A stretch of 64,000 nucleotides of DNA, taken from contig NZ_CP150269.1 of assembly GCF_037976825.1 (NCBI RefSeq), positions 579,001 to 643,000 on the forward strand. The letters run 5' to 3'. The translations under genes were made by a program, and so were the position numbers. Source of the stretch: Paenibacillus sp. FSL K6-1330. Lineage in GTDB: Bacteria > Bacillota > Bacilli > Paenibacillales > Paenibacillaceae. The notes below the pieces were generated by a model. It was given only the letters and a program-made list of their open reading frames with translations, searched no databases and was not told where the DNA came from. Shown here piece by piece: positions 16,118 through 27,343 of this stretch. How positions within the stretch are numbered: position 1 is the first letter of the stretch; every line of letters begins with the position of its first letter.

Positions 16118-16193
16118 GGTGTGCATATGGTATCTTGGAATTGAACGGAAAACGCCATGTTTAATAGATTCGTTGAGAGGATCGACAGTCAAA

Positions 16194-17300
16194 ATGAAAA
16201 CAAAAATACAAGAGTTGCCGCTGTCGCCGGGCGTATATCTCATGAGAGATTCGCGGGGAACGGTCATTTACGTTGGCAAATCCAAAAGTCTCAAGAAGAG
16301 AGTGCAGTCGTATTTTTACAACAATAAATCGCACTCCCCAAAAGTGAAGAAGCTGGTTCAGCATATCAAAGACCTGGAGCATATCGTCACCGACACGGAG
16401 TTTGAGGCGTTCATGCTGGAATGCAGGCTCATTCAGGACTTAAAGCCGATGTATAACCGCAAGATGAAAAATCCGCTAGGTTATAGTTATATCGTATTGC
16501 GGCAAAAGCGAGATTGGCGATGGCTGGAAATTACAGATACACTGGATGAAGGTGGTCACGACTGCTCTCGTTTTTTCGGCCCCTATACAGCCAGCAGACA
16601 TAGTCTTGAACATGCAGTGCAAAAGGTTAAGGAATGCTGTAAAATCGCCTGTAATCATACACCTGCCGCTTCTTCGGCAAATACTCCCTGCTTAAATTAT
16701 TCGATTGGCCTCTGTCTTGGTAAGTGTCTTGGCGGCGAAACCGGGCGGCAATTTGATGAAATCATGGATCGATTCATTGCTCTGCTTCAGGGGGACGACC
16801 GAAGTTTATATGATGAAATGGAGCGCAACATGCTCGACGCCGCAGAGCGTTTCGATTTTGAGCAGGCTGCAAAATACAGGGACGGCATGGAGGCGGTGAA
16901 CTTTCTCTTAAGTAAACGGCATGTGATCGAGTTCGCTGAAGAGAATCACAGCATCGTTGTCTACGAGTATCTAGACGAAGATACGATCAAGTTATTTCTG
17001 ATTAAGGGGAACGTTGTGCTGCACAGCGAGCGATGCTCTGTGGCTACCACAGTGGACATGGAATCGTTGAGGCAGAGGGTCAAAGCCTTGATTCTCAGCT
17101 ATTTCACGAGGGATATGGAATGCGATGCTACCGAGGTTACCCGGGAAGATATCGATGCTGCACAAATCATCTACAGCTATTTGCAGAGCAGTGCCTGCAG
17201 CTATCTTGTTCTTCAGGATTCATGGATCGAAGAGGGTGGGGAGCCTGATATGGAGGCTGCACTGCGGAATTTTTTGAATAACTATGTTGTGTCATCTTAA
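16194..17300 (+). CDS. UvrC-like GIY-YIG nuclease, Cho-like
   Basis: Short UvrC homologue (368 aa against about 590-610 for UvrC). The N-terminal GIY-YIG domain (about 10-95) has the Tyr and Gly-rich elements PGVYLMRD and VIYVGKSKSLKKRV plus the Glu helix. The middle carries a cysteine-rich segment (CCKIACNH...CLNYSIGLCLGKC) and a UVR helix (about 200-235, DAAERFDFEQAAKYRD), a UvrB-contact type motif. The C-terminal RNase-H-like nuclease and helix-hairpin-helix of UvrC are missing. This layout recalls E. coli Cho, which cuts only the 3' side of a lesion. Start ATG 16194 behind GAGAGG; a frame upstream to 16116 lacks a binding site. Confidence 0.82.
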   Translation: MKTKIQELPLSPGVYLMRDSRGTVIYVGKSKSLKKRVQSYFYNNKSHSPKVKKLVQHIKDLEHIVTDTEFEAFMLECRLIQDLKPMYNRKMKNPLGYSYIVLRQKRDWRWLEITDTLDEGGHDCSRFFGPYTASRHSLEHAVQKVKECCKIACNHTPAASSANTPCLNYSIGLCLGKCLGGETGRQFDEIMDRFIALLQGDDRSLYDEMERNMLDAAERFDFEQAAKYRDGMEAVNFLLSKRHVIEFAEENHSIVVYEYLDEDTIKLFLIKGNVVLHSERCSVATTVDMESLRQRVKALILSYFTRDMECDATEVTREDIDAAQIIYSYLQSSACSYLVLQDSWIEEGGEPDMEAALRNFLNNYVVSS

Positions 17301-17308
17301 TGATCATG

Positions 17309-17336
17309 AACCGGGTTGCTACAGCCCGGTTTTTTA
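17309..17336 (+). terminator. Rho-independent terminator
   Basis: AACCGGG/CCCGGTT stem and TTTTTT run directly after the UvrC-like gene. Confidence 0.85.
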
Positions 17337-17388
17337 TTATCAATAAATTTCCAACCTTCTAAACTCAAGATGAGTTGGATCTCATTTC

Positions 17389-17425
17389 AAAAAGACGTTC
17401 CCGAATGATCAAGGGACGTCTTTTT
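17389..17425. terminator. Bidirectional terminator hairpin
   Basis: AAAAAGACGT-CCC pairs with GGG-ACGTCTTTTT (one bulged T), flanked by A and T runs, so it can work in both directions. Confidence 0.75.
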
Positions 17426-17427
17426 GT

Positions 17428-17580
17428 GTCTCGTTTATCTGTGAATTCCAGACGGAGGAATTGCAAGCACAGCATCATCGCATTCAAGAACTGCCGCAGT
17501 CGATCGTATCGGAATAAATCGCCAAAGTCATAGACCGATCCGACATGAAATCGATTGCCTTCCATCTATTGCCAAAATGA
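17428..17580 (+). pseudogene. Possible degraded gene fragment
   Basis: One frame reads ...FQTEELQAQHHRIQELPQSIVSE, then a TAA at 17515-17517, then IAKVIDRSDMKSIAFHLLPK and TGA. The helical, charged first part and the in-frame continuation after one stop look like the tail of a decayed gene. No start or ribosome binding site. Unrecognised, low certainty. Confidence 0.25.
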
Positions 17581-17764
17581 TATTATATTATTACACTCGC
17601 GTTAGAGAATTGATGTAATCCCTGTTTTTTACGAGAGCTGATTTCTCAATTAAATCAAACTCTTTTAAAAAAAATCCGAAGTTTTGTTCAATTCATGAGT
17701 GCCGCAGGCATCTTCTTCTATAGGACCATAAATAACCGATCAAGAGAGGAGGAAGGGGAGATTT

Positions 17765-18556
17765 ATGCTGGAAATCACGGCAGATGGGACGACCATCGAG
17801 ACGATGGAGGACCGTTTCTTAACAGAGCGGGCGAAGGCAGGAGATACGGAAGCCTTCGGGGAGCTTGTTCGCCGTCATCGAACCTCGGCTCGTTCCTGGG
17901 CGCGTTCCATGACCCGGGATACCCACATGGCAGAGGATATCGTGCAGGATTCGTTAATCAAGGCGTTCCTGCATGTCGGACAACTGATCGATTCTTCCAG
18001 ATTCATGGGCTGGCTGCAGGCCATTGTCCGCAGGCAGGCGCAGATGAAGCTGCGACGCGGCGGTCCTTATCGAATCGAACAGCCCTTCACCAGCCTGAAG
18101 CCATCCCGAACGATGGATTCCGCCAATATCGATTGGGGCGATGTGGATCATATTTTGCAATTTCTGTCTGTGAAGCTAACGCACAAACAGAATGAGTTGA
18201 ATCCGGAGACGTTGTACTTACGCAAGGAAACGATTGAAATGATCCAGTCCTTCCTGCACGGCTTAAGCCGCAAGGAACGCGGCATTTTTGAAGCTTATTT
18301 TTTTAAACAATGGTCTCCTGATGAGATCGCCGCGATGTTCCAGACGACAACCCAGTCGGTCTATACCTACATCTATAGGGCCAAACGCAAGGTGCGTGAG
18401 GAGCATTCCCGCATGCTGATCCCTGCTTCTTCAGGGAAACCGGATCAGGAGAAGAATGGAGGAAACAGCTGGGTGAAAAAGTTGCCATTGCCTAGAACTA
18501 GAACGAGGGAAACGGCGTCTTCCCTTATCGATACCGTCTCCATGACGTCTCCATGA
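17765..18556 (+). CDS. ECF-type sigma-70 factor
   Basis: RNA polymerase sigma factor (263 aa) with region 2 at about residues 25-95 (AFGELVRRHR...AEDIVQDSLIKAF) and region 4 at about 165-220 (LSRKERGIFEAYFFKQWSPDEI, QSVYTYIYRAKRKVRE). Regions 1 and 3 are absent, as in ECF factors. No anti-sigma gene is present. About 40 residues follow region 4 and stop in an 11-bp tandem duplication; without it the frame would run on into the next gene, giving one sigma::BtrH-like fusion. Strong AGAGGAGG site 5'. The TGA overlaps the next ATG (ATGA), so translation is coupled. The stimulus is probably read by the two partner proteins, which is inference. Confidence 0.88.
   Translation: MLEITADGTTIETMEDRFLTERAKAGDTEAFGELVRRHRTSARSWARSMTRDTHMAEDIVQDSLIKAFLHVGQLIDSSRFMGWLQAIVRRQAQMKLRRGGPYRIEQPFTSLKPSRTMDSANIDWGDVDHILQFLSVKLTHKQNELNPETLYLRKETIEMIQSFLHGLSRKERGIFEAYFFKQWSPDEIAAMFQTTTQSVYTYIYRAKRKVREEHSRMLIPASSGKPDQEKNGGNSWVKKLPLPRTRTRETASSLIDTVSMTSP
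18535..18556 (+). repeat. 11-bp tandem duplication splitting sigma and BtrH-like genes
   Basis: CGTCTCCATGA occurs twice without a gap (18535-18545 and 18546-18556). Deleting one copy restores a continuous frame from the sigma gene into the next protein. Confidence 0.85.
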
Positions 18557-19614
18557 TGCTGGACATGATGAATCATACATATAGTGTGAGCGAGCTGATG
18601 GGACGCTCCGGTTATGCGTTCCGCTTGCGAATCTCCGGGTTGTCCACCTATGCTGACGGTGCGTTTGTATTCGATTGGCAGGAGGTATTAAGGCAGCTGT
18701 TTGATGGGATGGGATATGAAACTGCATTTGTGATCGGTCAGCTTCCGGATGAAGGTATTGTTCCACTGGTACCCGTAGCCTCCGCCTTTCCTTTTGCGAA
18801 GTCAAGGAGTCCTGAGGTCATGAACTTTGTCAGGGAATACTTGATTGCGGGAACGCCGGTGATGTTTTTTGATACCTACGTTCAGAAGCCCTTCACGTTT
18901 GAATGGAGCTTGATTTACGGTTACGATGACGGTCGGCAGGAGCTTTATGTGACGGACCCGTCGGCTCCTTACATGAAAACCATAACGTACGAAGAGCTGA
19001 CAACAAGTAGCTTGCGTTTTTTGTGCGGAATTAAAAAGAGACCCGAACAGGTGAATGGTACGAGGCGGGTTGCATTGCCTTCTATGGAGGAGCAGCTAAG
19101 CCGTATCGCCAGAGTCGCCGTAGAGGGTGACGGTTATTCGCCGCGCACCCCATTTCCTCATTATGTGCAGGGTTTGGCGGCTTATGATGCCTGGAGAAAT
19201 CACCTGAAGCAGGGTGAAGCGCATATCAATCTGCATGGGATGAGCTATTTGATTCGCGTGTATGGGGATGCCCGGAGGCATGCCGTGACGTATCTTCGCG
19301 ATCTCAAGGACCGATGGAGTGCGCAAAGGGGCTGCCATGAAACGGCTGATAGCGGAGCAGTCCATGATTCGCCGACATTGCCTGTGTATCAGATAGATGA
19401 AGCCTATGATCATCTCATAACATGTTATGAAGAATCCGCAAGGATGTGGACGGAGTTGGAAGCGCTTTTCCCATTTCCTTGCGGCACCGGCCGTTCAGAT
19501 CCGGAAGCGATCGTGGCGGCAAGCGATCTTTTGAAACGGGCTCATGAACAGGAAAGGGAAGCCATGCGAAGTTTGCAATTCGTGATTGATAATATAAGGA
19601 GGGATCATAAATGA
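18553..19614 (+). CDS. BtrH/C39-like protein of sigma operon
   Basis: Cytoplasmic protein (353 aa, no signal peptide or membrane helix). The first about 150 residues resemble the BtrH N-terminal/C39-like papain fold: SVSELMGRSGYAFRLRI, then a WSLIYGYDD...LYVTDPS stretch usual in such domains. I see no cysteine at the expected N-terminal catalytic place, so it may bind rather than cleave. The C-terminal half is helical and charged. The ATG at 18553 has no ribosome binding site and sits in the second copy of the tandem duplication; the missing N-terminal strand is encoded in the sigma frame (KKLPLPRTRTRETASSL...). It is followed by an ATGA overlap with the binding-protein-like gene. Function unknown. 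Confidence 0.75.
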   Translation: MMLDMMNHTYSVSELMGRSGYAFRLRISGLSTYADGAFVFDWQEVLRQLFDGMGYETAFVIGQLPDEGIVPLVPVASAFPFAKSRSPEVMNFVREYLIAGTPVMFFDTYVQKPFTFEWSLIYGYDDGRQELYVTDPSAPYMKTITYEELTTSSLRFLCGIKKRPEQVNGTRRVALPSMEEQLSRIARVAVEGDGYSPRTPFPHYVQGLAAYDAWRNHLKQGEAHINLHGMSYLIRVYGDARRHAVTYLRDLKDRWSAQRGCHETADSGAVHDSPTLPVYQIDEAYDHLITCYEESARMWTELEALFPFPCGTGRSDPEAIVAASDLLKRAHEQEREAMRSLQFVIDNIRRDHK

Positions 19615-20771
19615 CAGCACCAACTGAGCTTCGCCTCATCACAGAAGCGAACGGACATGATCTTAAATATGTGCAAACGGTGATTCAATCATTCGAAGTT
19701 TTCAGGCCAGACGTCAAAGTGGTGCTGGTCCAGGCGGAGGACAGCTATGGTGTGATGGAACAATTCCATCACGAAGGGGCTGATCTGCTGCATATCCGTG
19801 AGGGTGGTTATTCTACTCAGTTACGTAAAGGTGTTGTTCAAGATTTGCTGCCTTATCTGAGGAATGATCCGGTGCTGAAGATGGATGATTTTTATCAGGG
19901 AGCATTGACGCAGCCGATGTGGGAGGGCCAGCTAGCTGTGCTGCCGGTTGTGGATGTCGCAGTACCCCAAATTTTTTATAACAAAAAATGGTTTGCCGAA
20001 GCGAATGTACCCTTTCCTACGAATGAATGGACAGAGGATCAATTTCTTGATGCTGCGGTCCGCTTGACGCGGCACGGAGAGAACGGGGATGAATCAGGGT
20101 ATGGTTTTTACATTTATCCGGATGTAGAATTTTTGGAGCCGTTTCTTATGCGCAAGGGAGGGCGGCATTTGTCGGAGGACGGTTCTGTGGGCAGGGGCTA
20201 TACGGATAGCGAGATTGCGCATGCAGCGTATCAATGGATTGTAGATCTTTACCGCAAGCATCGAGTGGCTCCTATGCCGGGCGTCCAAGTGGACAACATA
20301 TTCCGTTCGAATCGGTTTGCCATGATCTATGACTTTAGCTGGCATAACGGGATTGCCTACGATCCCGAGTTAAGTGAAACCTATGGTGTGGTAGGATTGC
20401 CTCATGCACAGGGCGGCAGGGATATTTATACGATGTACTCGACAGGCTACGGCATTCCTGTCACGTCCAAGCATTCGGAGCTGGCATGGGAATTGCTGAA
20501 AGAATTAGCGCTACCTTCTTCGGAGGAAGCGAGGCGTGCTTATTGGGGTGTGCCCATCACAAAAACATTGGCTAAGGAGCTTGGACGTACCGGTAACCCA
20601 TGGTGGGGGCCGGCGTTGTACGCTATCGACCGAATCGAGAAGAATGCTTATCTCTCCAATCAGGTATGGAATCTGTCCAGGCAGCAAATGAATCAGGATA
20701 TTGAGCGGATGATCAAGGGAGAAGCCGGCGTTGAGGAGACGTTATCCCGCTGGGCGGAGATTGTATCGTAG
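19611..20771 (+). CDS. Leaderless solute-binding-protein-fold protein
   Basis: Family 1 extracellular solute-binding-protein fold (386 aa) without any signal peptide or lipobox: it begins MTAPTELRLITEANGHD, directly at the first beta strand. Family marks include QIFYNKKWFAEANVPFPTNEW and STGYGIPVTSKHSELAWELL. TAAGGAGGGA lies 8 bases before the ATG, which overlaps the previous stop (ATGA), so the start is secure and no leader has been missed. No permease is linked. It is therefore probably cytoplasmic and may sense a small solute for the sigma factor in the same operon. That role is inference. Confidence 0.85.
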   Translation: MTAPTELRLITEANGHDLKYVQTVIQSFEVFRPDVKVVLVQAEDSYGVMEQFHHEGADLLHIREGGYSTQLRKGVVQDLLPYLRNDPVLKMDDFYQGALTQPMWEGQLAVLPVVDVAVPQIFYNKKWFAEANVPFPTNEWTEDQFLDAAVRLTRHGENGDESGYGFYIYPDVEFLEPFLMRKGGRHLSEDGSVGRGYTDSEIAHAAYQWIVDLYRKHRVAPMPGVQVDNIFRSNRFAMIYDFSWHNGIAYDPELSETYGVVGLPHAQGGRDIYTMYSTGYGIPVTSKHSELAWELLKELALPSSEEARRAYWGVPITKTLAKELGRTGNPWWGPALYAIDRIEKNAYLSNQVWNLSRQQMNQDIERMIKGEAGVEETLSRWAEIVS

Positions 20772-22628: not shown

Positions 22629-22704
22629 GTATATTTAATTCAACACGACACCGCGTTAATATTATATAATATTAGTAAATAAACCGTTCGGAAGGGTGTT
22701 AAAT

Positions 22705-24065
22705 ATGTTGCGTTCTAACCGAGAAAAACAGCAGGCTTACGAGTTTGTTTCGATTGAAGAATTGGTTCCTCAAGATCATCTGCTCCGTAAAGTGGACAAG
22801 TATATCGATTTCTCTTTCATCGACGAAAAGGTCCGTCCGCTTTACTGTGCTGATAACGGGCGACCAGCCATCGACCCTGTTGTGTTATTTAAGATGATTT
22901 TCCTCGGTTATTTTTACGGCATCCGTTCCGAACGTCAACTCGAACGTGAAATTCAGACCAACCTCGCCTATCGCTGGTTTTTGGGGTTAGGTCTGACCGA
23001 CAAAGTGCCGGACCATTCTACGATTAGCTGGAATCGTCGCACTCGTTTTAAAGATACGGAGATTTTTCAAGAGGTCTTTGATGAGATTGTGCTGCAAGCC
23101 ATTCAGCACCGTATGGTAGGTGGACGCGTCCTGGTTTCCGATTCGACCCATGTCAAAGCGAATGCGAATAAGCATAAGTACACAAAGGAACAGGTTTTAC
23201 AAAACACCCGTGATTATGTAGGTGAACTTAATGCCGCCGTAGAGGCCGACCGGAAGGCACATGGAAAAAAGCGCTAAAGCCTAGAGAGGACGTGATGGAG
23301 GAAAAGGAAGTCAAAGTGAGCACGACAGATCCGGACAGCGGTTATATGATCCGCGATGGGAAACCGGAAGGATTTTTCTACTTAGACCACCGTACCGTAG
23401 ACCTGAAATACAATATGATTACGGATGTACATGTCACTGCGGGAAATGTCCATGATTCTATACCCTATTTGTCCCGTTTGGATCGTCAACAACAACGATT
23501 TGGTTTTAAAGTAGAAGCTGTTGCTCTGGATTCCGGGTACTTGACTTCACCTATCTGCAAAGGGCTGCAAAGCCGAAACATATTTGCTGTTATTGCTCAC
23601 CGAAGATTCCATCCGACTCAAGGTTTATTCCCAAAATGGAAGTTCACGTATGAAGCAGAGCGTAACCTTTATATCTGCCCGGCAGAGCACGAACTGCAAT
23701 ACAAGACGACCAACCGCGAGGGATACCGGCAGTACGCTTCAGATCCTCAGCACTGCAAGAGGTGTCCGTTATTAAACGAATGCACGCGGTCTCGCAACCA
23801 CCGAAAGGTGGTAACCCGTCACGTCTGGGAGGACAGCAAAGAATGGGTGCGAGGCAACCGGTTGAGTCGATCCGGGAAATATCTCTACCGAAAACGAAAA
23901 GAAACGATTGAGCGAAGCTTCGCGGACGCAAAAGAGCTCCACGGGTTTCGCTATTGTCGTTTGCGCGGGTTGCAGAACGTCAGGGAGCAAGCCCTGATGA
24001 CAGCAGCCGTACAGAATATGAAGAAGATGGCGATCCACCTGGATCGCCTGGAAAACAGGGGGTAA
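22705..24065 (+). pseudogene. IS1182 transposase, frameshifted
   Basis: DDE transposase with the N-terminal DUF772-like domain (FVSIEELVPQDHLLRKVD; RPAIDPVVLFKMIFLGYFYG), the VLVSDSTHVKA segment with a catalytic Asp, and the C-terminal DDE part (ALDSGYLTSP; RKRKETIERSFADAKELHG with the Glu). The frame breaks at an A run (23265-23270): six A are present where seven would read HGKKALKPREDVMEEKE. The ORF stops at 23277 and resumes at about 23292. Start ATG 22705 with GGAAGGG 8 bases before. Genuine mutation, sequencing error, or slippage are all possible. Confidence 0.88.
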
Positions 24066-24180: not shown

Positions 24181-24861
24181 CTATGATCTGCCTTCAAACG
24201 TCTGCGCCAGTATACGGAAGTCCAGCTCCACCGTGCTGGACAGCACGACATCCGCGTGCGGGAAATGCGCGGCATTGCCGATTGCCACGGCGAACATGCC
24301 GGCGCCCTTGATGGCATCAACGCCGGATGCGGCATCCTCCACCCCGATGCAGTCAGCAGGCTCTACGCCAAGCTGCGCGGCAGCGGTGAGGAAGATCTCC
24401 GGGTCCGGCTTGTTGTTCTTCAGCTTGGTCACGTCGACGATGACGTCGAACTGGTCCATGACGCCAAGCCGGGTCAATACGGCAATGGCGTTCTTGCTGG
24501 CGGACGCGATGCCGGTCTTCAGGCCGGCCGACCGGATGTCTGCCACAAACTCCGTAATGCCGGGCAGCAGGTCGGCTGGCGTAATCGTTTCGATCAGCTC
24601 GACATACAGCTTATTTTTGCGGTCGGCCAGCTGTACCAGCTCTTCATCCGAATAGCTTACAGGCTTCTCCGCTTGGCTTAACAGCAGCTTTAAGGAGTCC
24701 ATGCGGGATACCCCTTTAAGATTCTCGTTGAACTCTCGCGTGAAGGGAATGCCCAGCTCGGTTGCCGTGGCTTTCCATGCCTGATAATGATACTCCGCCG
24801 TATCGGTAATGACGCCGTCCAAGTCAAAGATGACAGCTTTCAACTTACGTGTTTCGTTCAT
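24181..24861 (-). CDS. pgmB: Beta-phosphoglucomutase
   Basis: HAD-superfamily mutase (226 aa) turning beta-glucose-1-phosphate into glucose-6-phosphate. HAD motif 1 is FDLDGVITDTAEYH with nucleophile Asp13 and acid/base Asp15. The cap domain follows (FNENLKGVSRMDSL). Motif 2 is GIASASKN, motif 3 Lys in KNNKPDPEIF, and motif 4 GVEDAASG. These cap and core signatures are typical of PgmB rather than general phosphatases. It lies downstream of the GH65 phosphorylase on the same strand, the classical partner that makes its substrate. Confidence 0.93.
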   Translation of the reverse strand: MNETRKLKAVIFDLDGVITDTAEYHYQAWKATATELGIPFTREFNENLKGVSRMDSLKLLLSQAEKPVSYSDEELVQLADRKNKLYVELIETITPADLLPGITEFVADIRSAGLKTGIASASKNAIAVLTRLGVMDQFDVIVDVTKLKNNKPDPEIFLTAAAQLGVEPADCIGVEDAASGVDAIKGAGMFAVAIGNAAHFPHADVVLSSTVELDFRILAQTFEGRS

Positions 24862-25002
24862 GTTTTTTACAGCTCCTTTTTCAGAAATCAGAAAGTATAA
24901 AATCGATGCATGGGACCTCTCTGATAACGCAAGAAAAATGACGGCTTACCGCAGCCTGTCTTCATGGAATATATATCGATAGATCGTTTTCTTCGTAAAC
25001 CG

Positions 25003-25039
25003 GGAGTGATGCCATACGTATAGGTAGGGCATCACCCCC
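25003..25039 (-). promoter_or_regulatory. Intercistronic hairpin between GH65 and pgmB
   Basis: GTGATGCC (25006-25013) pairs with GGCATCAC (25028-25035). No T run on the minus strand, so it may be a stabiliser or weak attenuator that sets pgmB expression relative to the phosphorylase. Confidence 0.45.
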
Positions 25040-25054
25040 ACGGCCTAAACCTAA

Positions 25055-27343
25055 TTACTTGCTCTGAAGCGCATGTTTCACAGATTTCCCTTCTTCAAGC
25101 GTTACGGCTTTGTCGTACAGCTTGATCTCGATGGAATCCCCTTCAACAATCTCCAGGGTCACGCCGTCCTTCTCGATGGATACGCCGATGAGGCGGCCGC
25201 GGAAGTTCAGGCGGAAGGCATACTTCTCCCAGTCCTGCGGAATGGCCGGGGAGAGGGAAAGTCCGCTTTCCTTCAGGCGCATGCCGGCAAAGCCGTAGAC
25301 GATGGACATCCAGGTACCGCCCATGTTAGCCATGTGCAGGCCGTCCTTCGTGTTGCCGTGCGTATTGTCCAGATCCAGGCGTGCCGTCTCGATGAAATAC
25401 TCATACGCCTTGTCCATGCTGCCGATCTTCGAAGCCATGATGCTGAAGATGCAGGAGGACAGGGACGAATCATGCGTCGTGATGCCTTCATAGTAGTCAT
25501 ACGAACGCTGGATCGTTTCCAAGCTTTGCTCGTCTTCCAGCAGGAAGTGAGCAAGCACTGTATCCGCCTGTTTACACACTTGGTAACGGTAAATGGTCAG
25601 CGGATGGTAGTTCAGCAGCAGCGGATATTTGTCCTCCGGCGTGTTGTCGAAGTCCCATACCGCCTTGCGGAGGAACGTATCATCCTGCGGGTTAATGCCG
25701 AGTGCCTCGTCGTACGGCAGCAGCATAGCGTCCGCCGCTTTGGCCCATGCCATGATCTCGTCTTCCGTGACGCCAAGCCGGTCACAGAGGGACTTGAAGC
25801 CTTGAGCATCGTAGGATTTCAGAATGGTGCAGCTTTGAGCAGCCCATTTCAGGTTATGCTTCGCCATAACGTTGGTGTAATAGTTGTTATTCACGCAGCA
25901 GGTATATTCATCCGGCCCCGTCACCTCATCAATATGAAAGGCGCCGTTATAATAGTGGCCGATGTCGGCCCACAAGCGGGCGGTTTCGATCAACACCTCG
26001 GCCCCATAGGACATGAGGAAATCCCGATCCTGTTCGGCGAGATAATACTGAATATAACTGTAGGCGATGTCTGCGCTGATATGGTATTGCGCCGTTCCCG
26101 ATGGGAAGAAGGAGGAGCACTCGGTTCCCGAAATCGTACGCCACGGGAACAGAGCGCCTTGCCGGTGACCCATTTCCCGAGCTCTGTCTCTCGCTTGCTC
26201 CAGCGTGGAATAACGATACAGCAGCAGTTGGCGTGCAATGTCCGGCTGCGTCATCAGGAATACCGGGAACATGTAAATTTCCGTGTCCCAGAAATAATGG
26301 CCTTCATAACCTTCACCGCTCAGGCCTTTGGCGGAGATGTTGCTGTGCTTGTCCCGACCGGCGGATTGCAGCAGCTGGAACAGGTTGAAGCGGATGCCTT
26401 CCTGCAGCTGGTCATCGTTCTGAATCAGCACATCGGCCGACTTCCAGTAGGCATTTAGATACTCGGTCTGCTCAGCCAGCAAGTCCTCAAACGAGGTATC
26501 CTTCAACTCCTCCTGCAGCTGGATTCCACGTTCGATCATCTCCTGCCCGTGACGAAGACTGTCGGTATACAGATTGTATTTCGTAAAGTGGATCGGTCCG
26601 GTCAATGGAATAGTAGCCGTGAATGTAACCTCTCCGGTTCCGGCTTCGAGCTGAACGTCGGCGTCGGCATCCAACTGGTGACGGGTCACACAAGCTGCGC
26701 GCAGCTTGGAGGCCATCGTCTCATCAACAACATAGGCGTCGCTGCCCTTCACACCGGCATCGATGACGGTCATCCGTTCCGCATGCCCTGCGCCGACCCG
26801 GGGGTCATTGGCATTGGTGTAGTTCTTCACTTTGCCGTTCACGGTGGAGACGATGCGAACCTGACCGTTGAAATTAACCGGTTCGATCCGTACATGGATG
26901 GCAAACAATTCCCGGTGCGTGAAGGACACCAGACGGCGAAAGGCCAGCTTGATCTCTTTGCCTTCAGGCGATTTCCACTGTACGATTCGCTCCGAATACC
27001 CCTTGTCCATATGCAAGTGGCGCTCATGTGAAGTGATCGTGCCGTGATCAAGGCGGAAAGGTTCTTTTTCTTCACCTAAATAGATCAGGACCGTTTGGGC
27101 ATCAATATTGTTAACGAGTTTTTGCTGTGTATCGGGAAAGGCGAAGAGCTTCTCGCCGTAAGGGATGTCAATCACGTCGTGGAAAGCGTTCAGATAGGTG
27201 CCGCGAATGGTGGACAAACTCTCTCCGTAGCCTTCTTCGAAGTTGCCACGCACACCCAAGTAACCGTTTCCGAGTGCAAAAATACTTTCCATATTCAGCA
27301 ACGCTTGCTGTGACAAATCAGGATTTGATATATTCCAGGTCAT
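25055..27343 (-). CDS. GH65 disaccharide phosphorylase
   Basis: Inverting glycoside phosphorylase (762 aa), the usual length for maltose, trehalose, kojibiose and nigerose phosphorylases. The N-terminal beta-sandwich occupies about 1-270, the (alpha/alpha)6 barrel about 310-690, and a small C-terminal sheet domain the rest. The proton donor is Glu479 in TGPDEYTCCVNNNYYTN. There is no signal peptide, so it works in the cytoplasm and gives beta-glucose-1-phosphate plus glucose; pgmB follows. The linkage preference cannot be decided by eye; maltose (alpha-1,4) and nigerose (alpha-1,3) are candidates, the latter attractive because a GH87 alpha-1,3-glucanase lies in the same region. Confidence 0.92.
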   Translation of the reverse strand: MTWNISNPDLSQQALLNMESIFALGNGYLGVRGNFEEGYGESLSTIRGTYLNAFHDVIDIPYGEKLFAFPDTQQKLVNNIDAQTVLIYLGEEKEPFRLDHGTITSHERHLHMDKGYSERIVQWKSPEGKEIKLAFRRLVSFTHRELFAIHVRIEPVNFNGQVRIVSTVNGKVKNYTNANDPRVGAGHAERMTVIDAGVKGSDAYVVDETMASKLRAACVTRHQLDADADVQLEAGTGEVTFTATIPLTGPIHFTKYNLYTDSLRHGQEMIERGIQLQEELKDTSFEDLLAEQTEYLNAYWKSADVLIQNDDQLQEGIRFNLFQLLQSAGRDKHSNISAKGLSGEGYEGHYFWDTEIYMFPVFLMTQPDIARQLLLYRYSTLEQARDRAREMGHRQGALFPWRTISGTECSSFFPSGTAQYHISADIAYSYIQYYLAEQDRDFLMSYGAEVLIETARLWADIGHYYNGAFHIDEVTGPDEYTCCVNNNYYTNVMAKHNLKWAAQSCTILKSYDAQGFKSLCDRLGVTEDEIMAWAKAADAMLLPYDEALGINPQDDTFLRKAVWDFDNTPEDKYPLLLNYHPLTIYRYQVCKQADTVLAHFLLEDEQSLETIQRSYDYYEGITTHDSSLSSCIFSIMASKIGSMDKAYEYFIETARLDLDNTHGNTKDGLHMANMGGTWMSIVYGFAGMRLKESGLSLSPAIPQDWEKYAFRLNFRGRLIGVSIEKDGVTLEIVEGDSIEIKLYDKAVTLEEGKSVKHALQSK

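Follow-up and report, generated by a model that had tools for sequence, protein, structure and literature searches.

In a 64,000-nucleotide stretch of the Paenibacillus sp. FSL K6-1330 genome (contig NZ_CP150269.1, positions 579,001 to 643,000; hereafter the window), a gene for an extracytoplasmic function (ECF) sigma factor is linked to a gene for a solute-binding protein (SBP) without a signal peptide. We propose, tentatively and with nearly an even chance of being right, that this pair is an autoregulated two-gene switch of the Paenibacillales, in which the sigma factor carries a dead-enzyme C-terminal domain and a cytoplasmic SBP acts as a second input. In the window, this unit is present in split and perhaps damaged form. 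The analysis shows the architecture, the fold of the domain, its lost cysteine, the missing leader, the co-inheritance of the two genes and a class-specific promoter that is nearly confined to the operon and a handful of related genes.

A sigma factor and a leaderless binding protein are inherited together

Three open reading frames (ORFs) lie on the forward strand of the window. The first (positions 17765 to 18556; 263 amino acids [aa] long) encodes an ECF sigma factor with sigma regions 2 and 4 and no other sigma domains (Pfam Sigma70_r2, E = 5.7e-11; Sigma70_r4_2, E = 1.6e-9; fold matches to sigmaE, SigW and others). For the middle ORF (18553 to 19614; 353 aa), neither Pfam nor NCBIfam gave a match at E ≤ 1, and the third (19611 to 20771; 386 aa) encodes the SBP (Pfam SBP_bac_1, E = 9.2e-21). 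The initial annotation had described three coupled genes on one strand, and the ORFs are indeed present with both ATGA overlaps, at 18553-18556 between the sigma and middle ORFs and at 19611-19614 between the middle ORF and the SBP gene. It had also proposed a separate middle protein as a relay; in relatives, however, this portion usually forms the C-terminal domain of the sigma factor itself. A search with the middle ORF returned 13 proteins of 545-618 aa, all 13 with sigma domains, and the closest (P0001; 612 aa, 93% identity over the middle ORF) carries the sigma and middle parts in a single chain. The 263-aa sigma ORF matches the N-terminal ~255 residues of this ~600-aa fused protein in relatives.

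P0001 had matches at E ≤ 1e-30 in at least 127 of 394 genomes of the family, a lower bound because three candidates were scored per genome. We assigned to class A the loci in which an SBP gene follows a fused sigma-domain gene and found at least 30 such loci (L004-L033), one per genome and including that of the window; a separate search of the same 394 genomes with the SBP yielded the same 30 genomes. Both halves lay in one ORF in all 29 class-A loci other than our own, and the SBP gene came next in 30 out of 30 (L032 is cut by a contig end and L011 is short, at 552 aa). The joint between domain and SBP showed the same 4-nucleotide (nt) ATGA overlap in 12 of these 29 loci and a spacing of -26 to +18 nt in 26; the three wider gaps measured 41, 116 and 145 nt by the script's choice of start. 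The SBP joint is thus of a conserved kind, and the sigma/middle joint is not. The expected co-occurrence in related genomes was found for the sigma factor and the leaderless SBP, with the middle part fused and not a gene of its own. Two tandem SBP genes stand behind one class-A sigma gene at G024:C6:65518-67751.

The structural model of the SBP (pLDDT 91.1) predicts a two-lobed SBP fold that matches oligosaccharide-binding proteins. Profile matches included Lmo0181 (5f7v), AbnE (6rjy) and a trehalose/maltose-binding protein (1eu8), with E values of 1.3e-24 to 1.8e-20, and conserved residues are present. The frame is open over exactly its 386 codons, so no signal peptide is hidden upstream. Counting in-frame upstream residues as well, we obtained a highest 15-residue hydropathy mean near the start of at most 0.84 in 30 out of 30 class-A SBPs versus 2.25-2.65 in eight ordinary SBPs of the same genome (8 of its 12 other SBP matches were tested). 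By eye, three of four such ordinary SBP genes adjoin permease-like genes and one adjoins a response regulator gene. The missing leader noted initially is therefore real, and close homologues lack it too.

With four candidates scored per genome, an SBP match reached E ≤ 1e-40 in at least 31 of the 394 genomes. These were the 30 of class A plus G180, where the AraC gene and the SBP have no sigma gene between them and the SBP sequence is spread over two frames. A protein search with the SBP, in which the 7998 candidates sharing most words were scored, gave at least four proteins of 376-387 aa at E ≤ 1e-60. Across 28 loci, distances correlated between domain and SBP (0.91), sigma and SBP (0.89) and sigma and domain (0.87; permutation p = 0.0005 each), with partial correlations of 0.61 for domain-SBP given sigma and 0.45 for sigma-SBP given domain.

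The fold and Pfam family of the SBP are those of transport proteins, and databases name close relatives extracellular, as would be expected of an ordinary transport binding protein that had lost its leader and come to lie beside a sigma gene by chance. We consider this scarcely credible: the protein is leaderless and adjacent in 30 out of 30 loci, and class-A SBPs form their own clade in the similarity search (5e-54 or better versus 4.8e-29 for the next SBP of the same genome). Furthermore, in agreement with the initial annotation, no permease, ATPase or anti-sigma gene kept a constant position across 14 neighbourhoods, each of 20 kb. The reading is thus already contradicted. Related neighbourhoods did not separate the genes, nor did close SBP homologues carry leaders. 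The sigma factor and the leaderless SBP are a conserved, co-inherited unit in all class-A loci.

The C-terminal domain is a probably dead relative of amide-forming enzymes

Compared by sequence with solved structures, the domain gave no match, Pfam yielded no domain of use, and structural relatives were found by fold search alone. The modelled domain of an intact relative (L004) has a BtrH/CtaG/CcbD fold, papain-like with a helical C-terminal part. The BtrH/C39 assignment made initially for the middle protein was thus right by fold, though Pfam and NCBIfam are silent. At model column 253, the site of the catalytic Cys, Ser or Thr occurred in 59 of 60 rows; by aligned ranges, CtaG C11 and CcbD C19 fall at model positions 252-254. 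Column 376 held Glu in 59 of 60 rows, and its equivalence to the catalytic His is an assignment from the motif. On the strength of the model, the domain is related to the BtrH/CtaG/CcbD amide-forming enzymes and, with the Cys absent, is probably catalytically dead.

That these two residues are conserved and not drifting could instead point to an active peptidase or acyl- or amide-transferase that uses Ser or Thr in place of Cys and modifies the sigma factor or the SBP. We regard this as very unlikely, because the Cys-His pair of the known enzymes appears to be absent and relatives of the domain accompany transcription regulators.

Class A has its own promoter

An ECF-type promoter sequence, TGTTCAA-N15-GGCATC, lies at positions 17685 to 17712 of the forward strand, ahead of the sigma gene; by analogy, TGTTCA would be the -35 and GGCATC the -10 element. 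The core TGTTC-N17-GGCA was present in 24 of 26 non-redundant class-A upstream regions (the cut L032 and the redundant L004, L012 and L021 being left aside), whereas ten shuffles reached at most 3. The window matches the full pattern exactly, as do 22 of the 29 other class-A loci; two have one mismatch, three from one lineage have two, L033 has four and the cut L032 has six. Only 1 of 27 class-B and class-D loci (classes defined below) carried it at one mismatch or fewer (L106). Separate motifs preceded the genes of class C (GATAG-N15-GGCA, 14 of 19) and class B (TGTCA-N18-AGTC, 8 of 21), with shuffles reaching 3-4. From these sequences, the classes seem to read their own promoters, and because the class-A promoter is conserved before the operon, we infer that the operon activates itself.

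Across 31 genomes we counted 40 exact sites, versus one for the backwards pattern. Twenty-three were operon promoters, two preceded orphan SBP genes with no sigma gene beside them (G298 and G301; the starts look leaderless by eye), and one preceded a stand-alone domain gene (G284). The 7.43-Mb genome that contains the window has one exact site, that of the operon, among 19 sites with at most one mismatch. A wider class-A regulon drawn from the latter was considered; the sites were not read as targets, since 16 of the other 18 overlap an ORF of at least 150 aa. One single-mismatch site, L220, lies 60 nt before a lipoprotein SBP gene.

Related classes and a wider domain family

Class B comprises fused genes without an SBP (20 loci, L088-L107), with both halves in one ORF in 19 out of 20 (the exception being L106); the genome of the window holds one at 4.56 Mb. 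We observed an EamA-type permease gene, recognised by eye, after the fused gene in this genome (L034:4927-7813) and in L099 and L100. In L090 and L091, an ORF of ~325-335 aa follows that resembles a further diverged copy of the domain (with AYDxW in the helical part) and has no Pfam match. The class-C sample consisted of 20 loci fetched as sigma-only matches (L068-L087). Here the domain was encoded by a separate adjacent gene in 16 loci and fused in L082; L068, L077 and L083 were unclear. No SBP match occurred within 12-13 kb in the 40 class-B and class-C loci, so the domain does not need an SBP in general.

Six loci (L062-L067) with proteins of 836-872 aa make up class D. The L064 protein (L064:8290-10905; 872 aa) carries glyoxalase-type repeats after the sigma-domain fusion (E = 1.1e-17), a candidate ligand-binding add-on; of the two class-D loci scanned, L064 and L062, the latter gave no such match. 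An SBP-like ORF with no evident leader and 28% identity to the SBP of the window follows a glyoxalase-like frame at L065:12368-13552, on the opposite strand and 940 bp from the class-D sigma gene. In a tree of the sigma regions, class A (30 loci) formed one clade with support of 0.94 and class C (19 loci) one with 0.91; classes B and D were not single clades.

The domain extends beyond sigma factors. A domain profile found matches in at least 147 of 296 genomes sampled from the order and in at least 24 of 398 sampled from the phylum; of these 24, 20 belong to other families. Both counts are lower bounds, few candidates having been scored per genome. The conserved Glu and a GYD motif are common to this wider family. 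Among 19 loci (L139-L157), the domain stood beside AraC regulators with GyrI-like/Cass2 domains in four (L145, L149, L155 and L156) and beside WYL proteins in two, both from the family of the window (L150 and L153). It was fused to a WYL protein in L141 and lay beside similar but Pfam-negative proteins in L142 and L148. In the other ten loci no regulator neighbour was seen, although not every neighbour was identified. That it stands beside or is fused to AraC-GyrI and WYL regulators speaks for a regulatory function of the domain, irrespective of the role of the SBP.

It is plausible, though we would sooner bet against it, that the dead BtrH/CtaG-like domains form a large unrecognised family that serves transcription regulators of Firmicutes (ECF sigma, AraC-GyrI and WYL) as a general sensor module, and that one sigma clade recruited a cytoplasmic sugar-transport-type SBP as a dedicated co-sensor. 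If so, a sigma factor would be switched directly by an intracellular sugar.

An 11-bp duplication splits the fused gene in the window

The break between the sigma and middle ORFs coincides with an 11-bp tandem duplication at positions 18535 to 18556 of the forward strand, with copies of CGTCTCCATGA at 18535-18545 and 18546-18556. DNA alignment to the corresponding locus of Paenibacillus sp. EZ-K15 (L001; 92% DNA identity) showed one copy extra in the window, and the extra copy produces a frame shift together with the ATGA stop/start at 18553-18556. Among units of 8-40 bp, the whole window contains just one further perfect tandem repeat, of 9 bp. The restart ATG is predicted to lie inside the first helix of the domain (model residues 253-264).

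For the window only, it is an even call whether the locus is a dead or dying allele whose sigma-domain fusion was broken in that helix, which would be compatible with any reading of the family. The two parts are unsplit in every other class-A locus, and no Shine-Dalgarno sequence was seen before the restart ATG. We also found no ~263-aa sigma factor above 54% identity among the best 120 of 184 matches in a search restricted to proteins of 0.55-1.75 times 263 aa, although a split form within a 90% cluster would escape. Against a dead allele, sigma factor and domain are naturally on separate genes in class C, ATGA restarts can work, the ORFs show no other damage in any of the three cases and the promoter matches exactly.

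Proposed mechanism and its main rival

In the proposed switch, the first gene supplies an ECF sigma factor that ends in the ~350 residues of the dead BtrH/CtaG/CcbD relative, and the second an oligosaccharide-binding-type protein kept in the cytoplasm. The SBP would bind a cytosolic (oligo)saccharide or similar ligand, and one of its ligand states would dock on the dead-enzyme domain. Docking might alter the presentation of sigma regions 2 and 4, in either direction, and so decide whether the sigma factor joins RNA polymerase. The holoenzyme would then read TGTTCAA-N15-GGCATC before its own operon, as promoter conservation suggests, and both partners would rise together. The contact between SBP and domain, the ligand and the direction of control are proposals. 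In favour of the switch, the one genome that has lost the sigma gene (G180) has its SBP broken into two frames, and the class-A promoter also precedes the two orphan SBP genes and the stand-alone domain gene.

Several observations weigh against it. Class-B and class-C sigma-domain systems run without an SBP, tight linkage alone raises distance correlations, and the copy in the window is split within the domain. No second exact promoter site in its own genome points to an output beyond the operon, and 14 of the 40 exact sites are unaccounted for: of 11 inspected, 3 have no gene in front and the other 8 overlap ORFs that are 150 aa or longer, and L200 also precedes a 427-aa ORF. The promoter data fit equally well with the SBP as output.

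This last possibility is a serious rival, although we judge it rather unlikely. The sigma factor would be controlled in cis by its own dead-enzyme domain and would drive a cytoplasmic oligosaccharide-binding protein that buffers sugars or hands them on. The orphan SBP genes of G298 and G301, preceded by the class-A promoter, would suit this arrangement, as would the sigma-domain proteins of classes B and C, which have no SBP. An output gene, however, need not sit so strictly beside the sigma gene as in 30 out of 30 loci, nor need it break where the sigma gene is lost; neither point is decisive.

Taken together, the observations of the initial annotation are partly confirmed, and its interpretation is partly supported: sigma factor and leaderless SBP are a co-inherited unit, and sensing of a ligand by the SBP with control of the sigma factor would be one of two readings that the data allow. 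Many related soil bacteria retain this pairing of sigma factor and SBP, which hints at an unstudied route by which nutrients may be sensed within the cell. Nature provides fused and split variants, variants with or without an SBP, and at least one with glyoxalase-type repeats. With these, a widespread domain and class-own promoters, signal sensing by extension-controlled ECF sigma factors becomes directly testable.

Genes around the operon

Besides the sigma-domain and SBP genes, no gene had a fixed place in the 14 class-A neighbourhoods and the window. No shared neighbour of the anti-sigma kind was found in the 14, although not every neighbour was identified, and a Pfam scan of ten nearby genes at five loci gave nothing consistent. 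The recurring clusters were generic: AraC-type regulators, and an ATP-binding cassette (ABC)-ATPase-type cluster somewhere within 20 kb in 5 of 14. The scanned member of this cluster, in L052, is an ABC ATPase, and L052 and L061 have two more genes of the set in common.

In the window, a GIY-YIG and UVR protein is encoded upstream at 16164-17297; it is UvrC-like but short (378 aa) and may be a stand-alone nuclease. In EZ-K15, ~3.8 kb with DnaK-like and J-domain-like ORFs (by eye; L001:1234-5028) lies between the GIY-YIG and sigma genes and is absent at window positions 17300-17765. Downstream, an insertion sequence-type transposase (DUF772, DDE_Tnp_1_6) occupies two ORFs at 22696-24065, with no such ORF listed at the matching place of L001. 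At 24184-27343, a few kb from the SBP gene, lie genes for a protein of glycoside hydrolase family 65 and for a HAD hydrolase, which may act as a pair in disaccharide phosphorolysis; the pair is not a conserved neighbour in class A.

Comparison with known systems

As a rule, anti-sigma proteins or small fused domains control ECF sigma factors. In the present case, that role seems to fall to a dead relative of antibiotic-biosynthesis enzymes and to a binding protein of the transport type that stays inside the cell. Our literature search, whose coverage was thin on subscription journals and the 2021 ECF classification, found no paper joining an ECF sigma factor with BtrH, or with C39 and a C-terminal extension. 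Because that classification lay outside the coverage, a numbered ECF group may already hold the class-A sigma factor; one candidate is ECF264 of Saccharibacillus, with an extension classed under Others. BtrH_N is related to the C39 and C70 peptidases in an account whose main text never mentions "sigma factor" (PMC10318531).

BtrH, CtaG, CcbD and AziU3 are carrier-dependent enzymes of antibiotic biosynthesis, whereas the domain described here is 6-13% identical to them, has Ser or Thr at the Cys position and is fused to a sigma factor. The oligosaccharide-binding proteins of ABC importers (5f7v, 6rjy and 1eu8) resemble the class-A SBP in profile and fold, but the latter has no signal peptide and no fixed transporter genes and is linked to a sigma factor.

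Among ECF sigma factors with a C-terminal extension, whose traits class A shares (regions 2 and 4, and fusion in every class-A locus except the split one of the window), ECF41 and ECF56 have a SnoaL-like extension, as PMC8999054 describes them. They resemble the present system in that a soluble domain, believed to bind small molecules and thereby to control sigma activity, is fused to the sigma factor. They differ from it in that our extension has ~350 residues and another fold, and a second, separate binding protein is linked. No SnoaL-like or TPR extension was found here, the domain being BtrH/CtaG-like in fold. The closest published pattern of extension and conserved neighbour is ECF42, which, by the account in section 3.5 of PMC8999054, has a TPR-rich C-terminal extension and a conserved YCII-domain neighbour. 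The two systems are alike in having no anti-sigma factor, a long C-terminal extension and a conserved, small partner gene next door that is proposed to act on the sigma factor. By contrast, the extension of ECF42 is TPR and its partner YCII, whereas class A combines a dead BtrH/CtaG-like domain with a leaderless SBP.

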